From positions 1 to 64,000 of the IMG/VR virus record IMGVR_UViG_3300042473_001265: DNA of 64,000 nt; one strand, written 5' to 3'. Origin of the DNA: a virus. Of this stretch, positions 33,823-54,352 are shown one piece after another (the stretch's first letter is position 1; every line of letters starts with the position of its first letter). The notes beneath the pieces were generated by a model, which was not told where the DNA came from, made no database searches, and worked only from the letters and a program-made list of their open reading frames with translations. Made by a program: the position numbers and the translations under genes.

Positions 33823-34224
33823 ATGAATCAACTTAAAAAAACAGCCTACGGGCACTATGAACTCACAGCAGCCAATGTAAAACCTCTTAGAGATTTTGTT
33901 ATTGTAGCTGACATGGATTTCTCAGAACGCAAACTATCATCTGGTCTAGTACTGTTAAATGACAATGGCACTGGATTAGGTATTCGTCCACGGTGGGGCA
34001 AGGTCTGGGCAGTAGGTCCGCAACAACAGGATGTCAAGCCCGGAGACTGGATTTGTGTGGCACACGGTCGTTGGACTCGCGGTATTGACATCGAAGACAA
34101 CGGCGTTAAAACCAGTATTCGCCGAGTTGACACTGACGACATTTTACTGGTGTCGGATGAAAAGCCCGATGACGATACCATGAGCACTGCGGAACATGTG
34201 GAATCCAAACACAGATTTGGGTGA
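33823..34224 (+). CDS. GroES-like co-chaperonin
   Basis: 133 residues. NVKPLRDFVIVADMDFSERK, then SSGLVLLNDNGTG, then RWGKVWAVGPQQQDVKPGDW follow the GroES barrel (VKPL.DRV.V, S.GGI.L, G.V.AVG.G.....VK.GD). The C-terminal acidic tail is extra. In T4, gp31 replaces GroES to enlarge the GroEL chamber for the capsid protein; this gene is the likely counterpart, using host GroEL. Starts 2 bases after the previous late gene. Confidence 0.8.
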   Translation: MNQLKKTAYGHYELTAANVKPLRDFVIVADMDFSERKLSSGLVLLNDNGTGLGIRPRWGKVWAVGPQQQDVKPGDWICVAHGRWTRGIDIEDNGVKTSIRRVDTDDILLVSDEKPDDDTMSTAEHVESKHRFG

Positions 34225-34226
34225 AC

Positions 34227-34703
34227 ATGATTTTTAATCACATCAAACAGCTCAAGGCCGATGGCAAAAAGATTGGCATCACCTTTTCCACCTTTGACAT
34301 GTTGCATGCAGGCCACATTGCCATGCTGTCAGAAGCCAAGAATCACTGTGACTATTTGATATGTGGCTTGCAAACTGATCCCACAATTGATCGACCTGGC
34401 ACCAAAAATGCACCCATACAAAGCATTGTGGAACGACAGATACAATTGAGTGCATGCCGCTATGTGGATGAAGTTGTAGTGTATCAAACTGAACGAGATC
34501 TTGTGGACCTGCTGTTGATTCTTCCTGTAGATGTGCGTATTCTCGGTGTCGAATACGAAGAAAAGGATTTTACTGGTCGAGATCAAGGTGCCATGCGAGG
34601 AATTGAACTGGTATTCAACGGACGAGATCATTCATTCTCCAGTTCAAGCCTGCGCAGGCGTGTGGTGGCTGCCGAAAATGAAAAAGTATTGCTGGCAAAA
34701 TAA
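34227..34703 (+). CDS. Cytidylyltransferase-like nucleotidylyltransferase
   Basis: 158 residues from ATG 34227 (GTG 34221 is an alternative start). GITFSTFDMLHAGHIAML carries HxGH; the terminal SFSSSSLRRRV replaces the RTEGIST signature of glycerol-3-phosphate cytidylyltransferases. A CDP- or ADP-activated small alcohol or sugar is the likely product. It is one of four nucleotidylyltransferases of this fold in the window. Confidence 0.75.
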   Translation: MIFNHIKQLKADGKKIGITFSTFDMLHAGHIAMLSEAKNHCDYLICGLQTDPTIDRPGTKNAPIQSIVERQIQLSACRYVDEVVVYQTERDLVDLLLILPVDVRILGVEYEEKDFTGRDQGAMRGIELVFNGRDHSFSSSSLRRRVVAAENEKVLLAK

Positions 34704-42642: not shown

Positions 42643-43596
42643 ATGAAAAAATTACTAGTATCACTTCTGCTGGCCCCGCTAATGGCGGCAGCTTGGCAAC
42701 CCACCAAGCCCGTCACAGTTGTCTACCCCAATGGACCCGGTGCCGGCAATGAAATATCATTCCGTATTGTGGCTGACATTGTGGAAAGAAAGACCGGTAT
42801 CGTATTCAAGGCAGAACACCGGCCAGGTGCGGATGGCAACATTGCTATCAATCACTTTGTAACAGTGCCGCGAGACGGACATACCATTGCAGTGCCAGCT
42901 TGCCAGTCAAACTGGGTCACACCCGAAGTATGGTATCTCAACATGATCAAGTACAATCCCATGGACCTAGAACCCATTGCCAACATTGCTCGCAGTCCCT
43001 TGGCATTCTGGGCGCATCCTTCGAGCAAGATTAACACCCCTGAAGAATTTGTTGCAGCCATTCGCAATCGGCAAAAAATGTCAGTGGCTATAGGAGGTGG
43101 CGGTCACAAACTGGCAGTGGAATATCTTGTGGACAAAGTAAGTGTACCCGGCAGTGACAACCTGCAAACTATAATGTACAAAGGTCCTGCACAGGCCTTG
43201 CTAGATGTCATGGGCGGGCATGTGGAGTTTGGTGTAACTCCTGTGGCTGTGGGATACCCGCTGGTCAAAGCAGGCAAACTCAAATTCATTGGAATTGCTG
43301 ATACTCAACCACTAGCAGGATTGGAAAATATTCCACTAATGAGCAAGGCTGCACCAGGGCTCAGTATTCATGGCTGCTGGAACATGGTATTACCACCCGG
43401 TACTCCTCAAGAAATACAAACATGGTATCAAGATAATTTTGTTCCTGCTATACGATCAGCCGAAGCTGCGGCCAAGTTTCGAGAAAACATGATGTACACA
43501 ACCCCTGTTGAACATACACCGGCTGGTGTCCGTGCCAGTATGGCACGACTACAACAGACCTGGCAACCAGTTGCTCGACGGATCAAACCCGAATGA
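42643..43596 (+). CDS. TctC/Bug-family periplasmic solute-binding protein
   Basis: 317 residues with a Sec signal peptide (MKKLLVSLLLAPLMAAA, cleavage near residue 17). KPVTVVYPNGPGAGNEISFR, EHRPGADGNIAINHF and PVAVGYPLVKAGKLKFIGI fit the Bug family that binds carboxylates for tripartite transporters. Complete in length. The family is massively expanded in Betaproteobacteria and rare in phages, so transfer from the host is likely. It could feed an uptake system, or block or decorate the envelope. Overlaps the sulfotransferase-like gene by 4 bases. Confidence 0.9.
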   Translation: MKKLLVSLLLAPLMAAAWQPTKPVTVVYPNGPGAGNEISFRIVADIVERKTGIVFKAEHRPGADGNIAINHFVTVPRDGHTIAVPACQSNWVTPEVWYLNMIKYNPMDLEPIANIARSPLAFWAHPSSKINTPEEFVAAIRNRQKMSVAIGGGGHKLAVEYLVDKVSVPGSDNLQTIMYKGPAQALLDVMGGHVEFGVTPVAVGYPLVKAGKLKFIGIADTQPLAGLENIPLMSKAAPGLSIHGCWNMVLPPGTPQEIQTWYQDNFVPAIRSAEAAAKFRENMMYTTPVEHTPAGVRASMARLQQTWQPVARRIKPE

Positions 43597-44927: not shown

Positions 44928-45782
44928 ATGACACAACGCATATTAGTAATGGGCTTACCAGGTTCGGGCAAAACATTCTTTGCAACCGCACTTAAAAAAT
45001 ATTTAGAAGAAAATTCTAATACACTTACTATGCCAGTGAGTCGTATGGTAAATTTAGAACACCCACCATTGACATACACTAGCAAAGTTGACTGGTTCAA
45101 CGCAGACGAAATTCGCAAACAATACAACGACTGGGACTTCAGTCGCGAAGGCCGTATTAGACAAAGTATTAGAATGTTTGATTTTGCTGTGCGATGTTCC
45201 GGAGACTTTGTAATCTGTGACTTTGTGGCACCGCTGGTGGAGATGAGGAACAACTTCAAAGCTGACTGGACCATATGGATGGACACTATTGATGCTGGCC
45301 GGTTTGAAGATACTAATAAGGCATTTGTTCCACCTGAACAGTACGATTTTAGAATCACAGAACAACATGCTGAAAAATGGGCAGAGTTTGTAGGCGATCA
45401 CATTTTGTATAATCGTAGGAGACCGCGGTTTGACTGGCAACGAGAAACGGTGCAGATGCTGGGCCGCTGGCAACCGTGGCATGCCGGGCATCGAGCCCTG
45501 TTTGAAAGACTAATTGCTCGAACAGGACAGGTTGTTATTCAAGTGCGTGATGTGCAAGGTTGGCAAGGATCTAATCCGTTTGCAATCGAACAGGTCAAGA
45601 ATTTTATACGGCGTGATCTAGATCCATTGTTCCAAGGACAATATGAAATACAAGTGGTGCCCAACATTGTACACATTGGCTGGGGCCGCGGAGTAGGCTA
45701 CACATCAGGTGAAGAAACATTTGACGAAACAGTAACCAGCATCAGCGCTACAAATATCAGAAAAAGTATGGGACTGTCGTGA
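44928..45782 (+). CDS. Fusion of APS-kinase-like and nucleotidylyltransferase domains
   Basis: 284 residues; AAAGGAG ribosome site. Residues 1-150: GLPGSGKT (9-16), WFNADEIRKQYNDWDFS.EGR..Q..RM and VICDFVAPLVEMR parallel CysC (DGDNVR...GFS..DR..NIRR, VICAFISPF..DR), and FVPPEQYDF parallels YEPP. Residues 170-284: GRWQPWHAGH (H185-H188) and SATNIR (273-278) mark a nucleotidylyltransferase of the NMN/sulfate adenylyltransferase superfamily. If both act on sulfate this would make PAPS from sulfate and ATP. The second domain is much shorter than ATP sulfurylase, so this is inference. Confidence 0.65.
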   Translation: MTQRILVMGLPGSGKTFFATALKKYLEENSNTLTMPVSRMVNLEHPPLTYTSKVDWFNADEIRKQYNDWDFSREGRIRQSIRMFDFAVRCSGDFVICDFVAPLVEMRNNFKADWTIWMDTIDAGRFEDTNKAFVPPEQYDFRITEQHAEKWAEFVGDHILYNRRRPRFDWQRETVQMLGRWQPWHAGHRALFERLIARTGQVVIQVRDVQGWQGSNPFAIEQVKNFIRRDLDPLFQGQYEIQVVPNIVHIGWGRGVGYTSGEETFDETVTSISATNIRKSMGLS

Positions 45783-46559: not shown

Positions 46560-47174
46560 ATGCAAATCAGCACTGCACAACTGCAACAAATCATACCCAG
46601 CAATCCATATGTTTCGCAATGGACCGAAGCACTAAACAAAATCTTACCCGACTACGGCATAGATACTCCGCAGCGAGTCAGCGGATTCTTAGCACAATGC
46701 GCCCATGAAAGTGCAGGGTTTACTGCGCTGAGTGAAAATTTAAACTATCGCAAAGAATCTCTACGCCGTGTTTTTGCCAAATATTTCACCAGTGATTCAG
46801 TGGCCGAACAGTATGCACACAAAGAATCCATGATTGCCAACCGTGTGTATGCCAACAGAATGGGCAATGGTGACGAAGCATCTGGTGACGGATATCGCTA
46901 TTGCGGTCGTGGCCTAATTCAGCTCACAGGCAAAGACAACTATCAAGCATTTGCCGAAAGTGTAGAAATGGCTGTGGAAGATGTGCCAGCATATCTGGCC
47001 ACATTTGAAGGTGCAGTGCAAAGTGCCTGTTGGTTCTGGGAAACAAATAATCTAAACCAATGGGCTGACAAGGGCGATATTGTTACACTGACCAAACGCA
47101 TCAACGGCGGCACCATTGGTCTAGAAGATCGCATCAAGCACTACGAACACGCACTGCATGTACTAGGACTATAA
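46560..47174 (+). CDS. Endolysin, glycoside hydrolase family 19
   Basis: 204 residues. FLAQCAHESAGFTALSENLN supplies the catalytic Glu of the GH19 chitinase-like lysozymes, followed by NRVYANRMGNGDEASGDGYR and CGRGLIQLTGKDNYQ, all diagnostic. No signal peptide, so it needs the holin for release. Cleaves the glycan strands of peptidoglycan. First gene of a compact lysis cassette. Confidence 0.9.
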   Translation: MQISTAQLQQIIPSNPYVSQWTEALNKILPDYGIDTPQRVSGFLAQCAHESAGFTALSENLNYRKESLRRVFAKYFTSDSVAEQYAHKESMIANRVYANRMGNGDEASGDGYRYCGRGLIQLTGKDNYQAFAESVEMAVEDVPAYLATFEGAVQSACWFWETNNLNQWADKGDIVTLTKRINGGTIGLEDRIKHYEHALHVLGL

Positions 47175-48812: not shown

Positions 48813-49601
48813 ATGGATCACTACAAAACACTTGATGTTGCCCGTACTGCCACTCCGGATGAAATAAAAAAAGCCTATCGCAAGCTGGCTTCTCAGCATC
48901 ATCCCGACAAAGGTGGCAACACTGCCAAGTTTCAAGAACTACAAACTGCTTACGACACCCTAAGCGATCCTGCCAAACGACAGCAATACGATAACCCTAG
49001 GCCCAATTTTGGACAACACCCGCATCCGGGCGGACAACAGTTTGACTTTGACACTATATTTGATGTGTTTGGCACTAGGTTTACTCAGAGCACTAGGCAG
49101 CGACCACAAACAGTCATCAGCAGAGTAGGACTGACCATCAGTCTAACTGACGTGGCCACTGGTGGCAAACGCACCATTGGGCTGGGCCACGGGCAAGCCA
49201 ACACTATCGAAATAGACATACCCGCAGGTATCAATCAAGGCGATAGTGTGCAGTACAAAGGCATTGCTCCGGGTGGTGGAGATTTGATAATAACATTCAG
49301 CGTTCGCGACGATCCCAAATGGCAACGGCAAGGAGCAAATTTACATACCGAACAGTTGGTGAATATTTGGGATCTGATTGTGGGTGGTGAATCTGTGGTC
49401 CGGGACCTGTTCAACGAAGAGATAACCATTCTAATACCGCGGGGCACACAGCCCGGTAGTAGATTACGGTTAAGGGGTCGTGGACTGCCCAGCAAAACTG
49501 GCCCAGGCGATATAATTGTGCAGGTACAGGCTGTTATTCCCGATCACATACCCGAAGATTTGTTAAATATGATAGAACAAAAACGAACAACTGTTGGTTG
49601 A
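48813..49601 (+). CDS. DnaJ/CbpA-type co-chaperone
   Basis: 262 residues. J domain at 1-65 with HPD (30-32). GGGGxF linker reduced. No zinc-finger repeats, so CbpA-like, followed by the two C-terminal substrate barrels ([39 protein letters not shown]). It would recruit host DnaK. Precedes the ClpA-like unfoldase; the pair may direct host proteostasis to phage ends. Confidence 0.9.
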
Positions 49602-49626
49602 TCTAAAGTTTAGATCGTAGTATAAT
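49598..49626 (+). promoter_or_regulatory. Promoter of the ClpA-like gene with palindromic spacer
   Basis: -35 TTGATC 49598-49603, -10 TATAAT 49621-49626. The spacer is almost filled by a perfect palindrome GATCTAAA-G-TTTAGATC (49600-49616). A dimeric repressor bound there would block RNA polymerase. Confidence 0.7.
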
Positions 49627-49655
49627 ACTTTAATTGAATACTCACGAAAGACACA

Positions 49656-51929
49656 ATGCAAAATAATCCAGAAATCGATGCTGTAGTCAACAACGCCACT
49701 GCCATTGCTGTGGGACACAAACACGGATATGTGCTGACAGAACATGTGCTGCTGGCCATGGTACAGTATCCATCGTTCCGCAAAATACTAGAAAAATACG
49801 GAACACCAGTTGAACAACTAGAATCTGAATTGCACAACTACCTGCAGAGTCAAACCAGCCTGTTGACAGACCGCACAGATCCCCCACGCAAAACCAATGC
49901 ACTGGAGCGAGTGTTTAATCGGGCGCTGACACAGGTACTGTTCACGGGCCGTAGAACAATTACCTTGTTGGACTTGTATTTGGCCATGATGTCTGAAACC
50001 AACAGCCATGCACATTACTACTTGTTGAAGTATAATGTTCGCAAAACAGAATTTGCTGAATTCTTCCAAAAGAATTACAACATCACTGATGTGGAATTGA
50101 CCAGCGCCAAGGCCGACGAAATTCTTGAAGAACACTGTGTCAATTTGAGTCGCAGAGCAGCCGAAGGTCAACTTGAACCCATGATTGGGCGCACAGCCGA
50201 ACTGGAAGAAATGATCACTGTGCTGGCCCGCAAGTTCAAGGCCAATGTGCTGATGGTGGGCGATCCGGGTGTGGGCAAAACTGCCATCATTGACGGACTG
50301 GCACAAGAAATTCATGCTGGCTCTGTGCCAGAGTTTCTCAAAGGTGCAGAAGTTTGGGGACTGGAAATTGGATCCCTGTTGGCTGGCAGCAAGTATCGCG
50401 GCGAGTTTGAAGAAAAGTTCAAAGATGTTATCACAGCATTGAAAACCAAGAAGAACTGTGTGCTGTTCATTGACGAAGCACACACCATGATGGGTGCGGG
50501 TGCCAGTGGATCCAGCAGTCTGGACTTTGCCAACATGATCAAACCGGCCATCACCAGTGGCAACTTGAAAGTGATTGCCAGTACCACCTGGGAAGAATAC
50601 TACGAATCATTCGAGCGTGATCGTGCGCTAATGCGCCGTTTTCACAGAGTCACCATTGGTGAGCCGGATGCTGCCACCACTGAGCAGATCCTGATTGGCA
50701 TCAGCCCTAGACTGGAATCATTCCACAATGTGATGATTGACACAGACGCCATGTGTGCAGCAGTGGAACTGAGTGGACGCTACATACACGATCGTAAGAA
50801 TCCTGACAAGTCAATTGATCTGCTGGACGGTGCCTGTGCTGCACAGCGAGTGTTGGATCAAGGCACAGTCACAGTGAACAAACACATGATCATGGCACAG
50901 GTCAGCCGTGTGACCAGTATTCCACTGGACCGCTTGCAAAACGAACGCAGTATCAAAATTACCGAACTTGAAAGCAATGTCAAACAATTCCTGTACGGGC
51001 AGGATGCAGCAATTGACACTGTGCTGGAACGAGTGTACATCAACTTCTCTGGCATTGGCAATCCCAAAAAGCCGGTGGCCAGCTTTTTGTTCCTGGGTCC
51101 AACTGGCACAGGCAAAACAGAATTGGCCAAGCTGCTGGCAGAGAATCTTGACATGCACCTGCTGAAATATGACATGAGCGAGTTTCAGGAAAAGCACAGC
51201 ATTGCCAGCTTGATTGGTGCACCGCCGGGCTATGTGGGCTTTGATGACGGCAATGTGGGCGGCGGCAAATTGATCAGTGACATATCCAAGAACCCATTCA
51301 GTGTGCTGCTGTTTGATGAAATTGAAAAGGCACATCCTGACGTGGTCAACATCATGTTGCAGATGCTGGACGAAGCCAAAATTACTGGCAGCAGTGGCAA
51401 ATCAGTTGATGTTAAAAACTGCATCATCATCATGACCAGTAATTTAGGTGCCAGAGACAATGAAAACAACAACATTGGCTTTGGCAAATCGTTGGAAAAA
51501 TACGGCGAAGAAGATCGTGCAATGAAAGACTTCTTCAAGCCGGAACTGCGTAACCGCATTGATGCTGTGTGCAAGTTCAACAAGTTGGATCCATTGGCCA
51601 TCAAGAAAGTTGTGGTCAAGTTCACACGAGAACTACAGCAGAGCCTGTACGCCAAGAACATCAAGCTGATGTTTGATGAAAGTGTTATCAACATGCTGTC
51701 GGAAAAAGGATACGATCCCAAGATGGGTGCTAGACCGCTGAGTCGCAAGATTGACGAACTGATTCGTGTTCCGCTCAGCAAGCGCATACTGTTTGATCAG
51801 ATCAAAGACTGTTCTATATTGGCCATCATGGTTGCTGACGAGCTGATGTTTGTGACCAAACCGCTGACTGGTCCCCTGCCAATTGTGGACGGAAAAGGAT
51901 ATATTTTACTCGATGCCCCTGCTGTCTGA
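49656..51929 (+). CDS. ClpA-like AAA+ unfoldase with ClpP-binding IGF loop
   Basis: 757 residues, close to E. coli ClpA (758). N-domain about 1-140. First AAA+ module with Walker A GDPGVGKT (202-209), Walker B LFIDEAHTMMGAG. No long ClpB-type middle domain. Second module with GPTGTGKT (481-488), LFDEIEKAHPDV. I607-G608-F609 sits where ClpA has IGL and ClpX IGF, the tripeptide that docks into ClpP. No clpP is seen here, so host ClpP is the likely partner. The promoter has an operator-like palindrome. Confidence 0.88.
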   Translation: MQNNPEIDAVVNNATAIAVGHKHGYVLTEHVLLAMVQYPSFRKILEKYGTPVEQLESELHNYLQSQTSLLTDRTDPPRKTNALERVFNRALTQVLFTGRRTITLLDLYLAMMSETNSHAHYYLLKYNVRKTEFAEFFQKNYNITDVELTSAKADEILEEHCVNLSRRAAEGQLEPMIGRTAELEEMITVLARKFKANVLMVGDPGVGKTAIIDGLAQEIHAGSVPEFLKGAEVWGLEIGSLLAGSKYRGEFEEKFKDVITALKTKKNCVLFIDEAHTMMGAGASGSSSLDFANMIKPAITSGNLKVIASTTWEEYYESFERDRALMRRFHRVTIGEPDAATTEQILIGISPRLESFHNVMIDTDAMCAAVELSGRYIHDRKNPDKSIDLLDGACAAQRVLDQGTVTVNKHMIMAQVSRVTSIPLDRLQNERSIKITELESNVKQFLYGQDAAIDTVLERVYINFSGIGNPKKPVASFLFLGPTGTGKTELAKLLAENLDMHLLKYDMSEFQEKHSIASLIGAPPGYVGFDDGNVGGGKLISDISKNPFSVLLFDEIEKAHPDVVNIMLQMLDEAKITGSSGKSVDVKNCIIIMTSNLGARDNENNNIGFGKSLEKYGEEDRAMKDFFKPELRNRIDAVCKFNKLDPLAIKKVVVKFTRELQQSLYAKNIKLMFDESVINMLSEKGYDPKMGARPLSRKIDELIRVPLSKRILFDQIKDCSILAIMVADELMFVTKPLTGPLPIVDGKGYILLDAPAV

Positions 51930-53575: not shown

Positions 53576-54352
53576 ATGAATTATCTTGTAATCTACCCTG
53601 GTCGTTTTCATCCATTTCACCGCGGTCATATGGCCAGTTATGATTGGCTGACTAAAAAGTTTGGAGAAAATAGCGTGTATATTGCCACCAGCAATGTGCA
53701 GGCACCCATCACCAGTCCGTTCAATTACAGTGACAAAGTGATGATGATGACCAAGTTGGGTGTTCCGGCTAGCCACATTGCCAATGTGAAGAATCCTTAT
53801 CAAGCAACAGAAATCACTGGTAATCTGTCCGACGACGAAAAAAACAAAACAGCATTGGTATTTGCAGTCAGTGCCAAAGACGCTGAACGCTTCAACTTTG
53901 CTCCAAAAAAAGACGGCACGCCAGGTTATTTGCAACCACTGCCCAAGACTGGCAAAGGCGTAAAGCCCATGACCAAACACGGTTATGTGGCCATCACTCC
54001 CACCATCAACTTCCAAGTAAACGGAGTAGATGCCAACAGTGCCAGTGAAATACGCAGCATGTATATCAAAGGCAATGACCATGACAAGGATCAGGTCATT
54101 GCTGATCTGTACGGACAACCAGATCCGGCAATTCGAGCAATGTTTGATAAAAAGTTAGGCATTGGTGAGCAGATACAACAGCAGATCAACGAAGCACGCC
54201 GCAGTGTTGGCGCTGGCAGACAGTTTGGTAAAACTCAGCTTGCAGAATGGATGCAAAATGTGTTACAATTAGAAAAACAAGCAAACAGTATTGATCTTGA
54301 TTTTTCCCACATCAACCCAGATTATATAGACGAAAAAACTTATAATCGTTAA
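53576..54352 (+). CDS. NMN-adenylyltransferase-like nucleotidylyltransferase
   Basis: 258 residues. NYLVIYPGRFHPFHRGHMA has the GRF.P.H.GH signature of nicotinamide-nucleotide and related adenylyltransferases. SASEIRSMY may be the distal ISGT.IR-like motif. A C-terminal helical tail of about 70 residues is extra (VGAGRQFGKTQLAEWMQ). If it makes NAD+ or deamido-NAD+, it pairs with NadE (19176). T4-like cyanophages carry similar genes. Late expression and a virion role cannot be excluded. Confidence 0.65.
   Translation: MNYLVIYPGRFHPFHRGHMASYDWLTKKFGENSVYIATSNVQAPITSPFNYSDKVMMMTKLGVPASHIANVKNPYQATEITGNLSDDEKNKTALVFAVSAKDAERFNFAPKKDGTPGYLQPLPKTGKGVKPMTKHGYVAITPTINFQVNGVDANSASEIRSMYIKGNDHDKDQVIADLYGQPDPAIRAMFDKKLGIGEQIQQQINEARRSVGAGRQFGKTQLAEWMQNVLQLEKQANSIDLDFSHINPDYIDEKTYNR

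Follow-up and report, generated by a model that had tools for sequence, protein, structure and literature searches.

The clpA product of this virus is likely to be the unfoldase of a self-contained, phage-borne Clp protease, judging from the genes carried in the same record; the phage probably brings its own Clp protease machine instead of having to borrow that of its host. The window, a 64,000-nucleotide stretch, comprised bases 1-64000 of a 340,172-base virus record (IMGVR_UViG_3300042473_001265; labelled G000). The whole record was searched family by family and read in stretches. No near-identical isolated phage was found by megablast, and searches with anti-phage defence profiles returned partial AAA+ matches only. 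An earlier note on this DNA had seen no clpP and had proposed that ClpA takes over host ClpP; the absence of clpP holds within the 64-kb window, but two PF00574 clpP genes lie elsewhere in the 340-kb record.

The unfoldase gene and its motifs were assigned from profiles, alignment and an AlphaFold model as follows.

49656..51929, + strand: clpA, encoding a two-module (D1+D2) ClpA-type AAA+ unfoldase of 757 aa (profiles, alignment, AlphaFold model)
50259..50282, + strand: D1 Walker A, GDPGVGKT, residues 202-209 (motif alignment)
51096..51119, + strand: D2 Walker A, GPTGTGKT, residues 481-488 (motif alignment)
51474..51482, + strand: IGF tripeptide I607-G608-F609 of the ClpP-docking loop, aligned to IGL of E. 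coli ClpA

Residues 4-724 aligned with E. coli ClpA over almost the whole length (phmmer E=3.8e-168), and the Pfam domains were ordered Clp_N, AAA, AAA_lid_9, AAA_2 and ClpB_D2-small. Both Walker A/B pairs, both pore loops, the arginine fingers and sensor 2 were intact, and the N-domain and D2 small domain were present. Domains, ATPase sites and the E. coli ClpA alignment agree on the full two-module ClpA layout first read by the earlier note. The AlphaFold model had a mean pLDDT of 79, and its best structure matches included chains of ClpAP and ClpCP complexes. The top curated model was NCBIfam ClpA TIGR02639 (783.8 bits, E=1.5e-235), a score below the equivalog cut-off of 993.15; phage ClpAs of this group scored 776-810 on the same model. 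Because the score lies under the cut-off, and does so group-wide, the protein was filed under ClpA-type unfoldases, as a phage branch of that type, and was not called equivalogous to bacterial ClpA. ClpB/Hsp104 disaggregases carry a coiled-coil middle domain between D1 and D2 and lack the IGF loop. That identity was dropped, as the IGF is present and ClpB aligned to the open reading frame in two stretches only, against one unbroken stretch for E. coli ClpA. ATP-dependent unfolding coupled to ClpP is predicted for the phage protein.

The docking loop was compared across 41 non-redundant IMG/VR relatives of ClpA, whose pairwise identity had a median of 70% and went down to 40%. I, G and F were each invariant in 41/41 sequences, and positions 604, 606, 611 and 612 in the loop flanks were among the more variable columns. 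Residues 601-616 had pLDDT<50 in the AlphaFold model, a low model confidence of the kind expected for a flexible docking loop. Loops of the IGL/IGF type dock into ClpP clefts (PMC7707817; PMC9035409). The alignment supports strong purifying selection on the tripeptide and a ClpA predicted to be competent for ClpP docking, and on both the placement of I607-G608-F609 and the predicted competence the earlier reading stands.

The remaining Clp components and further proteostasis genes were located in the record at the following positions.

33823..34224, + strand: GroES/gp31-like co-chaperonin (PHROG 931, 6.9e-12; PHROG 3188 (GroES), 6.1e-7)
G000:304216-305424: ClpX (509 bits vs a curated cut-off of 359)
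G000:305526-305984: Hsp20, IbpA-like
G000:~306046-306360: ClpS (PF02617, 74.5 bits, over cut-off)
G000:327656-328231: ClpP2 (PF00574, 95.2 bits)
G000:329873-330463: ClpP1 (PF00574, 262.8 bits)

ClpX kept a C4 zinc finger, AAA+ Walker motifs and an IGF loop of its own. ClpS kept the Asn47 and His79 positions (Caulobacter numbering); the Asp49 position was Thr, and was mostly Asn or Thr in its lineage. These Asn, Asp and His residues are ligand residues of the N-degron pocket, and N-degron reading by the phage ClpS may be altered with the loss of the acidic residue. ClpP1 scored 309 bits against the 249-bit cut-off of a curated ClpP subfamily and kept the S97-H122-D171 triad. It was ~64% identical to E. 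coli ClpP and had largely the same docking pocket: among the residues that line it (E. coli ClpP numbering), R22, L23, L48, F49, Y62, F82, I90, M92 and L114 were kept, and Y60 was changed to Leu, F112 to Leu and L189 to Val. The triad, R22, Y62, F82 and L114 were invariant in 36/36 distinct ClpP1 relatives. ClpP2 had a true ClpP fold (Foldseek TMq ~0.85 to ClpP structures), and its S, H, D triad was kept in 37/37 relatives; the pocket was lost in nearly all 37 (F82 to S, L114 to T, L189 to S, Y62 to M). By these residues ClpP1 reads as a canonical ClpP with triad and docking pocket kept, and ClpP2 as a diverged one with the pocket lost.

ClpP1 lay 0-5 kb downstream of ClpP2 on the same strand in 46/48 ClpP2 loci, the other two being cut by the contig end. 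An obligate pair was considered and dropped: G010 and G016, both incomplete records, kept ClpA, ClpX, ClpS and ClpP2 and lacked ClpP1 at the syntenic site, and G028 and G012 had ClpP1 without ClpP2, with the neighbouring genes otherwise kept. The pair is a frequent module, not an obligate one. A ClpP tree placed the ClpP1 sequences of this lineage and their counterparts from Atu_ph07, Phosso and PA5oct in one group (97/90 support), separate from the bacterial ClpPs that were sampled; a single planctomycete MAG contig of 11.5 kb fell within the phage group and may be a mis-binned phage contig. The separate, supported group therefore points to a peptidase that is old in these phages and no recent host scrap, and the tree does not support a recent capture of clpP from a host.

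The components in G000 were split over three loci (clpX-hsp20-clpS, clpP2/clpP1 and dnaJ-clpA), with no single operon. If the genome is circularly permuted, clpP1 would lie ~60 kb upstream of clpA, and the spacing was similar in relatives with an uncut order (clpP1 and clpA at 72.9 / 134.4 kb in G022 and at 207.0 / 268.9 kb in G028). Among 35 viral records fetched by ClpA, the same 8 carried ClpP, ClpS and the ClpX zinc finger, and the three further near-complete records (337-347 kb) were all among them. The remaining records were mostly short fragments, the longest without ClpP, ClpS and ClpX being 236 kb (G032); since clpX, clpS and clpP lie within ~26 kb of each other in G000, one missing stretch would remove all three together. 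In the other direction, full-length ClpA was found in 10/10 records >200 kb that were fetched by ClpP1 or ClpP2. Isolated jumbo phages bearing ClpA had a ClpS match in 8/8 cases, over cut-off in 7/8.

That the phage ClpA mainly recruits host ClpP and so redirects the host protease, as the earlier note had it, now appears unlikely. That proposal rested on the absence of clpP from the window, and the note itself had named a clpP elsewhere in the genome with its own adaptor as a refutation; G000 carries exactly this, a ClpP1 with an intact pocket and ClpS, besides ClpP2 and ClpX. A ClpP was also present in all near-complete relatives checked and in 8/8 isolated ClpA phages. An IGF loop fits any canonical ClpP, cross-docking is plausible given the identity of ClpP1 to the E. 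coli protein, and the two relatives without ClpP1 at the syntenic site keep IGF in ClpA; the docking-competent ClpP1 and the ClpS in the same record weigh against host recruitment as the main route. Use of host ClpP is no longer needed as an explanation, and its takeover is not supported. Because the pocket is conserved, docking to host ClpP in addition is likely possible, most plausibly in relatives without ClpP1; the unfoldases of G010 and G016 would need host ClpP or would act without a protease.

ClpA could instead work without any protease, together with DnaJ and host DnaK, as an unfoldase or disaggregase that serves virion assembly or replication complexes. A jumbo-phage survey suggested a translocase or assembly-chaperone role (PMC7824862), and the gene next to clpA fits such a partnership.

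48813..49601, + strand: dnaJ-like co-chaperone, directly upstream of clpA (Pfam DnaJ 1.2e-22, DnaJ_C 7.4e-27)

A J domain with its HPD motif, read in the translation, is followed in the product by DnaJ_C, and no zinc finger was detected in it. No Hsp70/DnaK was found in G000, so the phage DnaJ would work with host DnaK. dnaJ stood directly before clpA in both PA5oct and Atu_ph07, and in Phosso it was one gene away; the two genes are a conserved pair, and the recurrence strengthens the proteostasis role that had been read from the DnaJ neighbour. This conserved adjacency favours a protease-free ClpA, but such a protein would have no obvious reason to keep an invariant IGF (41/41) or to co-occur strictly with ClpP and ClpS, and both the domain layout and the best profile are those of ClpA, not ClpB. 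We regard it as improbable.

The start of clpA was examined for its promoter and for the operator-like repeat that had been reported there.

49598..49626, + strand: sigma-70-like clpA promoter, TTGATC - 17 - TATAAT (10/12 match)
49600..49616, unstranded: perfect 8-1-8 palindrome GATCTAAA-G-TTTAGATC (whole: GATCTAAAGTTTAGATC), judged a chance inverted repeat

TTGATA/TTGATC-17-TATAAT/TATACT was found at -58 in the close relatives L010-L013, L015 and L062, in position and spacing as in G000. The palindrome is exact and sits at the promoter, as had been described, where it shares bases with the stop codon of dnaJ, with the -35-like TTGATC and with the promoter spacer. A perfect 8-1-8 repeat lying over the -35 and the spacer of a well-matched promoter speaks for an operator of a dimeric repressor, but that part of the claim did not hold. 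The search of the whole genome that had been proposed found the palindrome nowhere else in the 340-kb record with <=2 mismatches allowed, and relatives at 82-83% identity, with -35 and -10 in place, lacked it. Perfect inverted repeats of this class were at chance level in the window (6 observed vs 5.15 expected); P was ~0.006 for one given 54-nt spacer, and the window holds ~40 intergenic gaps. The promoter is credible and the operator is not; a real operator at this site is very improbable. Less credible still is the reading of the ClpP homologues as head-maturation proteases unrelated to ClpA, which follows the PHROG label 'head maturation protease' for the ClpP fold: ClpP1 exceeds the curated ClpP cut-off (309 vs 249 bits) with its ATPase pocket kept, and head maturation does not call for ClpP, since the record and its relatives separately encode a T4-type S77 prohead protease.

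What is evident from the sequence is that all components of the preferred reading, a phage-borne Clp protease, are in one record, with intact ATPase motifs, docking loops and the triad and pocket of ClpP1; its assembly, activity, choice of partners and substrates we infer. A sigma-70-like promoter of its own, located behind dnaJ, would drive clpA. The ClpA hexamer would dock by its IGF loops into the hydrophobic pockets of the ClpP1 barrel, and the ClpX hexamer would dock on ClpP1 likewise, in parallel. The docked unfoldase would unfold substrates with ATP and thread them into ClpP1 for degradation, and ClpS, bound to the ClpA N-domain, would feed or re-direct substrates. DnaJ (with host DnaK) and Hsp20 would belong to the same proteostasis set. 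Candidate substrates are host defence or takeover targets, or phage proteins.

A more tentative arrangement, possible but doubtful, is a mixed barrel of ClpP1 and ClpP2 in which the ClpP1 face alone would take ClpA or ClpX, and the ClpP2 face would either admit no unfoldase or serve some other partner. It is proposed by analogy with M. tuberculosis ClpP1P2, where the ATPases use one face only (PMC4416901). A literature search found no paper on the biochemistry of this phage Clp system or on a docking asymmetry of two phage ClpPs, and the asymmetry seems to be undescribed so far. A natural pair of ClpP paralogues, with and without the unfoldase pocket, offers material for gating studies. Proteolysis could also give a large phage a direct means of removing host defence and takeover targets, and the joint presence of unfoldase, adaptor and peptidase across a jumbo phage lineage turns a presumed host-ClpP hijacker into a testable self-contained protease.

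Phage Clp sets have already been described, and G000 adds another example. Agrobacterium phage Atu_ph07 was reported with ClpX gp2, ClpA gp292, ClpB gp492, ClpP gp676, ClpS gp708 and, beside ClpA, DnaJ gp293 (PMC6102473). It has the same components and the same dnaJ-clpA neighbours as G000, and its ClpP1 is 67% identical and falls in the same ClpP group; it differs as a 490-kb phage with ClpB also listed, an FGF loop in ClpX, one PF00574 match only and a ClpA ~38% identical. Sinorhizobium phage Phosso and Pseudomonas phage PA5oct and its kin likewise hold ClpA, ClpP, ClpS and ClpX in one genome, with dnaJ beside or near clpA, but their ClpA is at ~39% identity. Phosso also has a ClpP2-like gene (52% identity), although its two ClpP genes are ~85 kb apart, and in PA5oct the pocket of the single ClpP is partly changed. 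Six Clp ORFs were reported in Sinorhizobium jumbo phage AP-J-162 (PMC11242549), and a survey of 224 jumbo phages, the one that proposed the translocase or assembly-chaperone role, mentions ClpP, ClpS, ClpA and ClpX in subsets of them (PMC7824862). The distant RaK2-type jumbo phages (RaK2, Munch, XaC1, Vibrio 2.275.O) are similar to G000 in size and likewise have ClpA, one or more ClpP-like genes and a match to ClpS; in contrast to G000, their docking tripeptide has drifted (IGV, MNM, VGF), as has the ClpP pocket, the ClpX zinc finger was not found in them, and dnaJ is not directly before clpA.

The set shares with E. coli ClpAPS/ClpXP its domain layout, docking loop and pocket, adaptor and second unfoldase. 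It differs in being phage-borne and spread over three loci, with an extra pocketless ClpP2 and an altered ClpS ligand residue, and the phage ClpP1 has almost no propeptide at its ATG start, unlike E. coli ClpP. M. tuberculosis ClpP1P2 (PMC4416901) is alike in having two ClpP paralogues, with one ATPase face there and the pocket only in ClpP1 here, and differs in that mixed barrels are hypothetical for the phage pair and each of its genes alone is absent in some relatives.

The ClpP pair and the ClpS adaptor were located in the whole 340-kb virus record (G000; L003, L004 and L008 are stretches of it with their own coordinates):

G000:327656-328231 (L003:9657-10232), ClpP2, outside the window
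G000:329873-330463 (L003:11874-12464), ClpP1, outside the window
G000:306046-306360 (L008:8047-8361), phage-encoded ClpS

The two clpP genes lie ~1.6 kb apart. The catalytic triad is intact in both products, and the unfoldase docking pocket is present in ClpP1 and absent in ClpP2. Between them, on the opposite strand, an ORF of ~516 aa was found without a Pfam match; it recurs in relatives. In phage ClpS, Thr has replaced the acidic residue of the N-degron pocket, and most members of the lineage have Asn or Thr at this position; the substitution hints that ligand choice may have changed.

G000:332324-334027 (L004) holds a run of some five short ORFs, paralogous to one another and with a KFAELIVxEC-like motif in common, apparently a tandem family. 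A PstS-like phosphate-binding protein (G000:312425-313426; L008) is encoded near a fatty-acid desaturase (G000:311551-312348), and similar ORFs were found in syntenic stretches of relatives.

Within the window, a GH19-type lysozyme/chitinase domain (46560-47174) precedes two small ORFs whose products begin like membrane proteins or lipoproteins; together they probably make up a lysis cassette. Unusual cargo included a tripartite tricarboxylate transporter receptor of the TctC/Bug type (42643-43596); Bug receptors are typically borne by Burkholderiales, and the gene is a hint of such a host. Nucleotidyltransferase-like proteins (34221-34703 and 53576-54352, both with CTP_transf_like; 44928-45782, beginning like a kinase) possibly serve NAD or cofactor metabolism.

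ClpA and ClpP1/ClpP2, each 100% identical, were carried separately on two contigs from one sample, IMGVR_UViG_3300042559_001588 and IMGVR_UViG_3300042559_002030 (L009/L214/L334), fragments of one virus or of two nearly identical ones. Contig JADHSL010000081.1 (L134; 11.5 kb), from a Pirellulales MAG, is probably a mis-binned phage contig; its ClpP groups inside the phage ClpP group, with Atu_ph07, Phosso and PA5oct.
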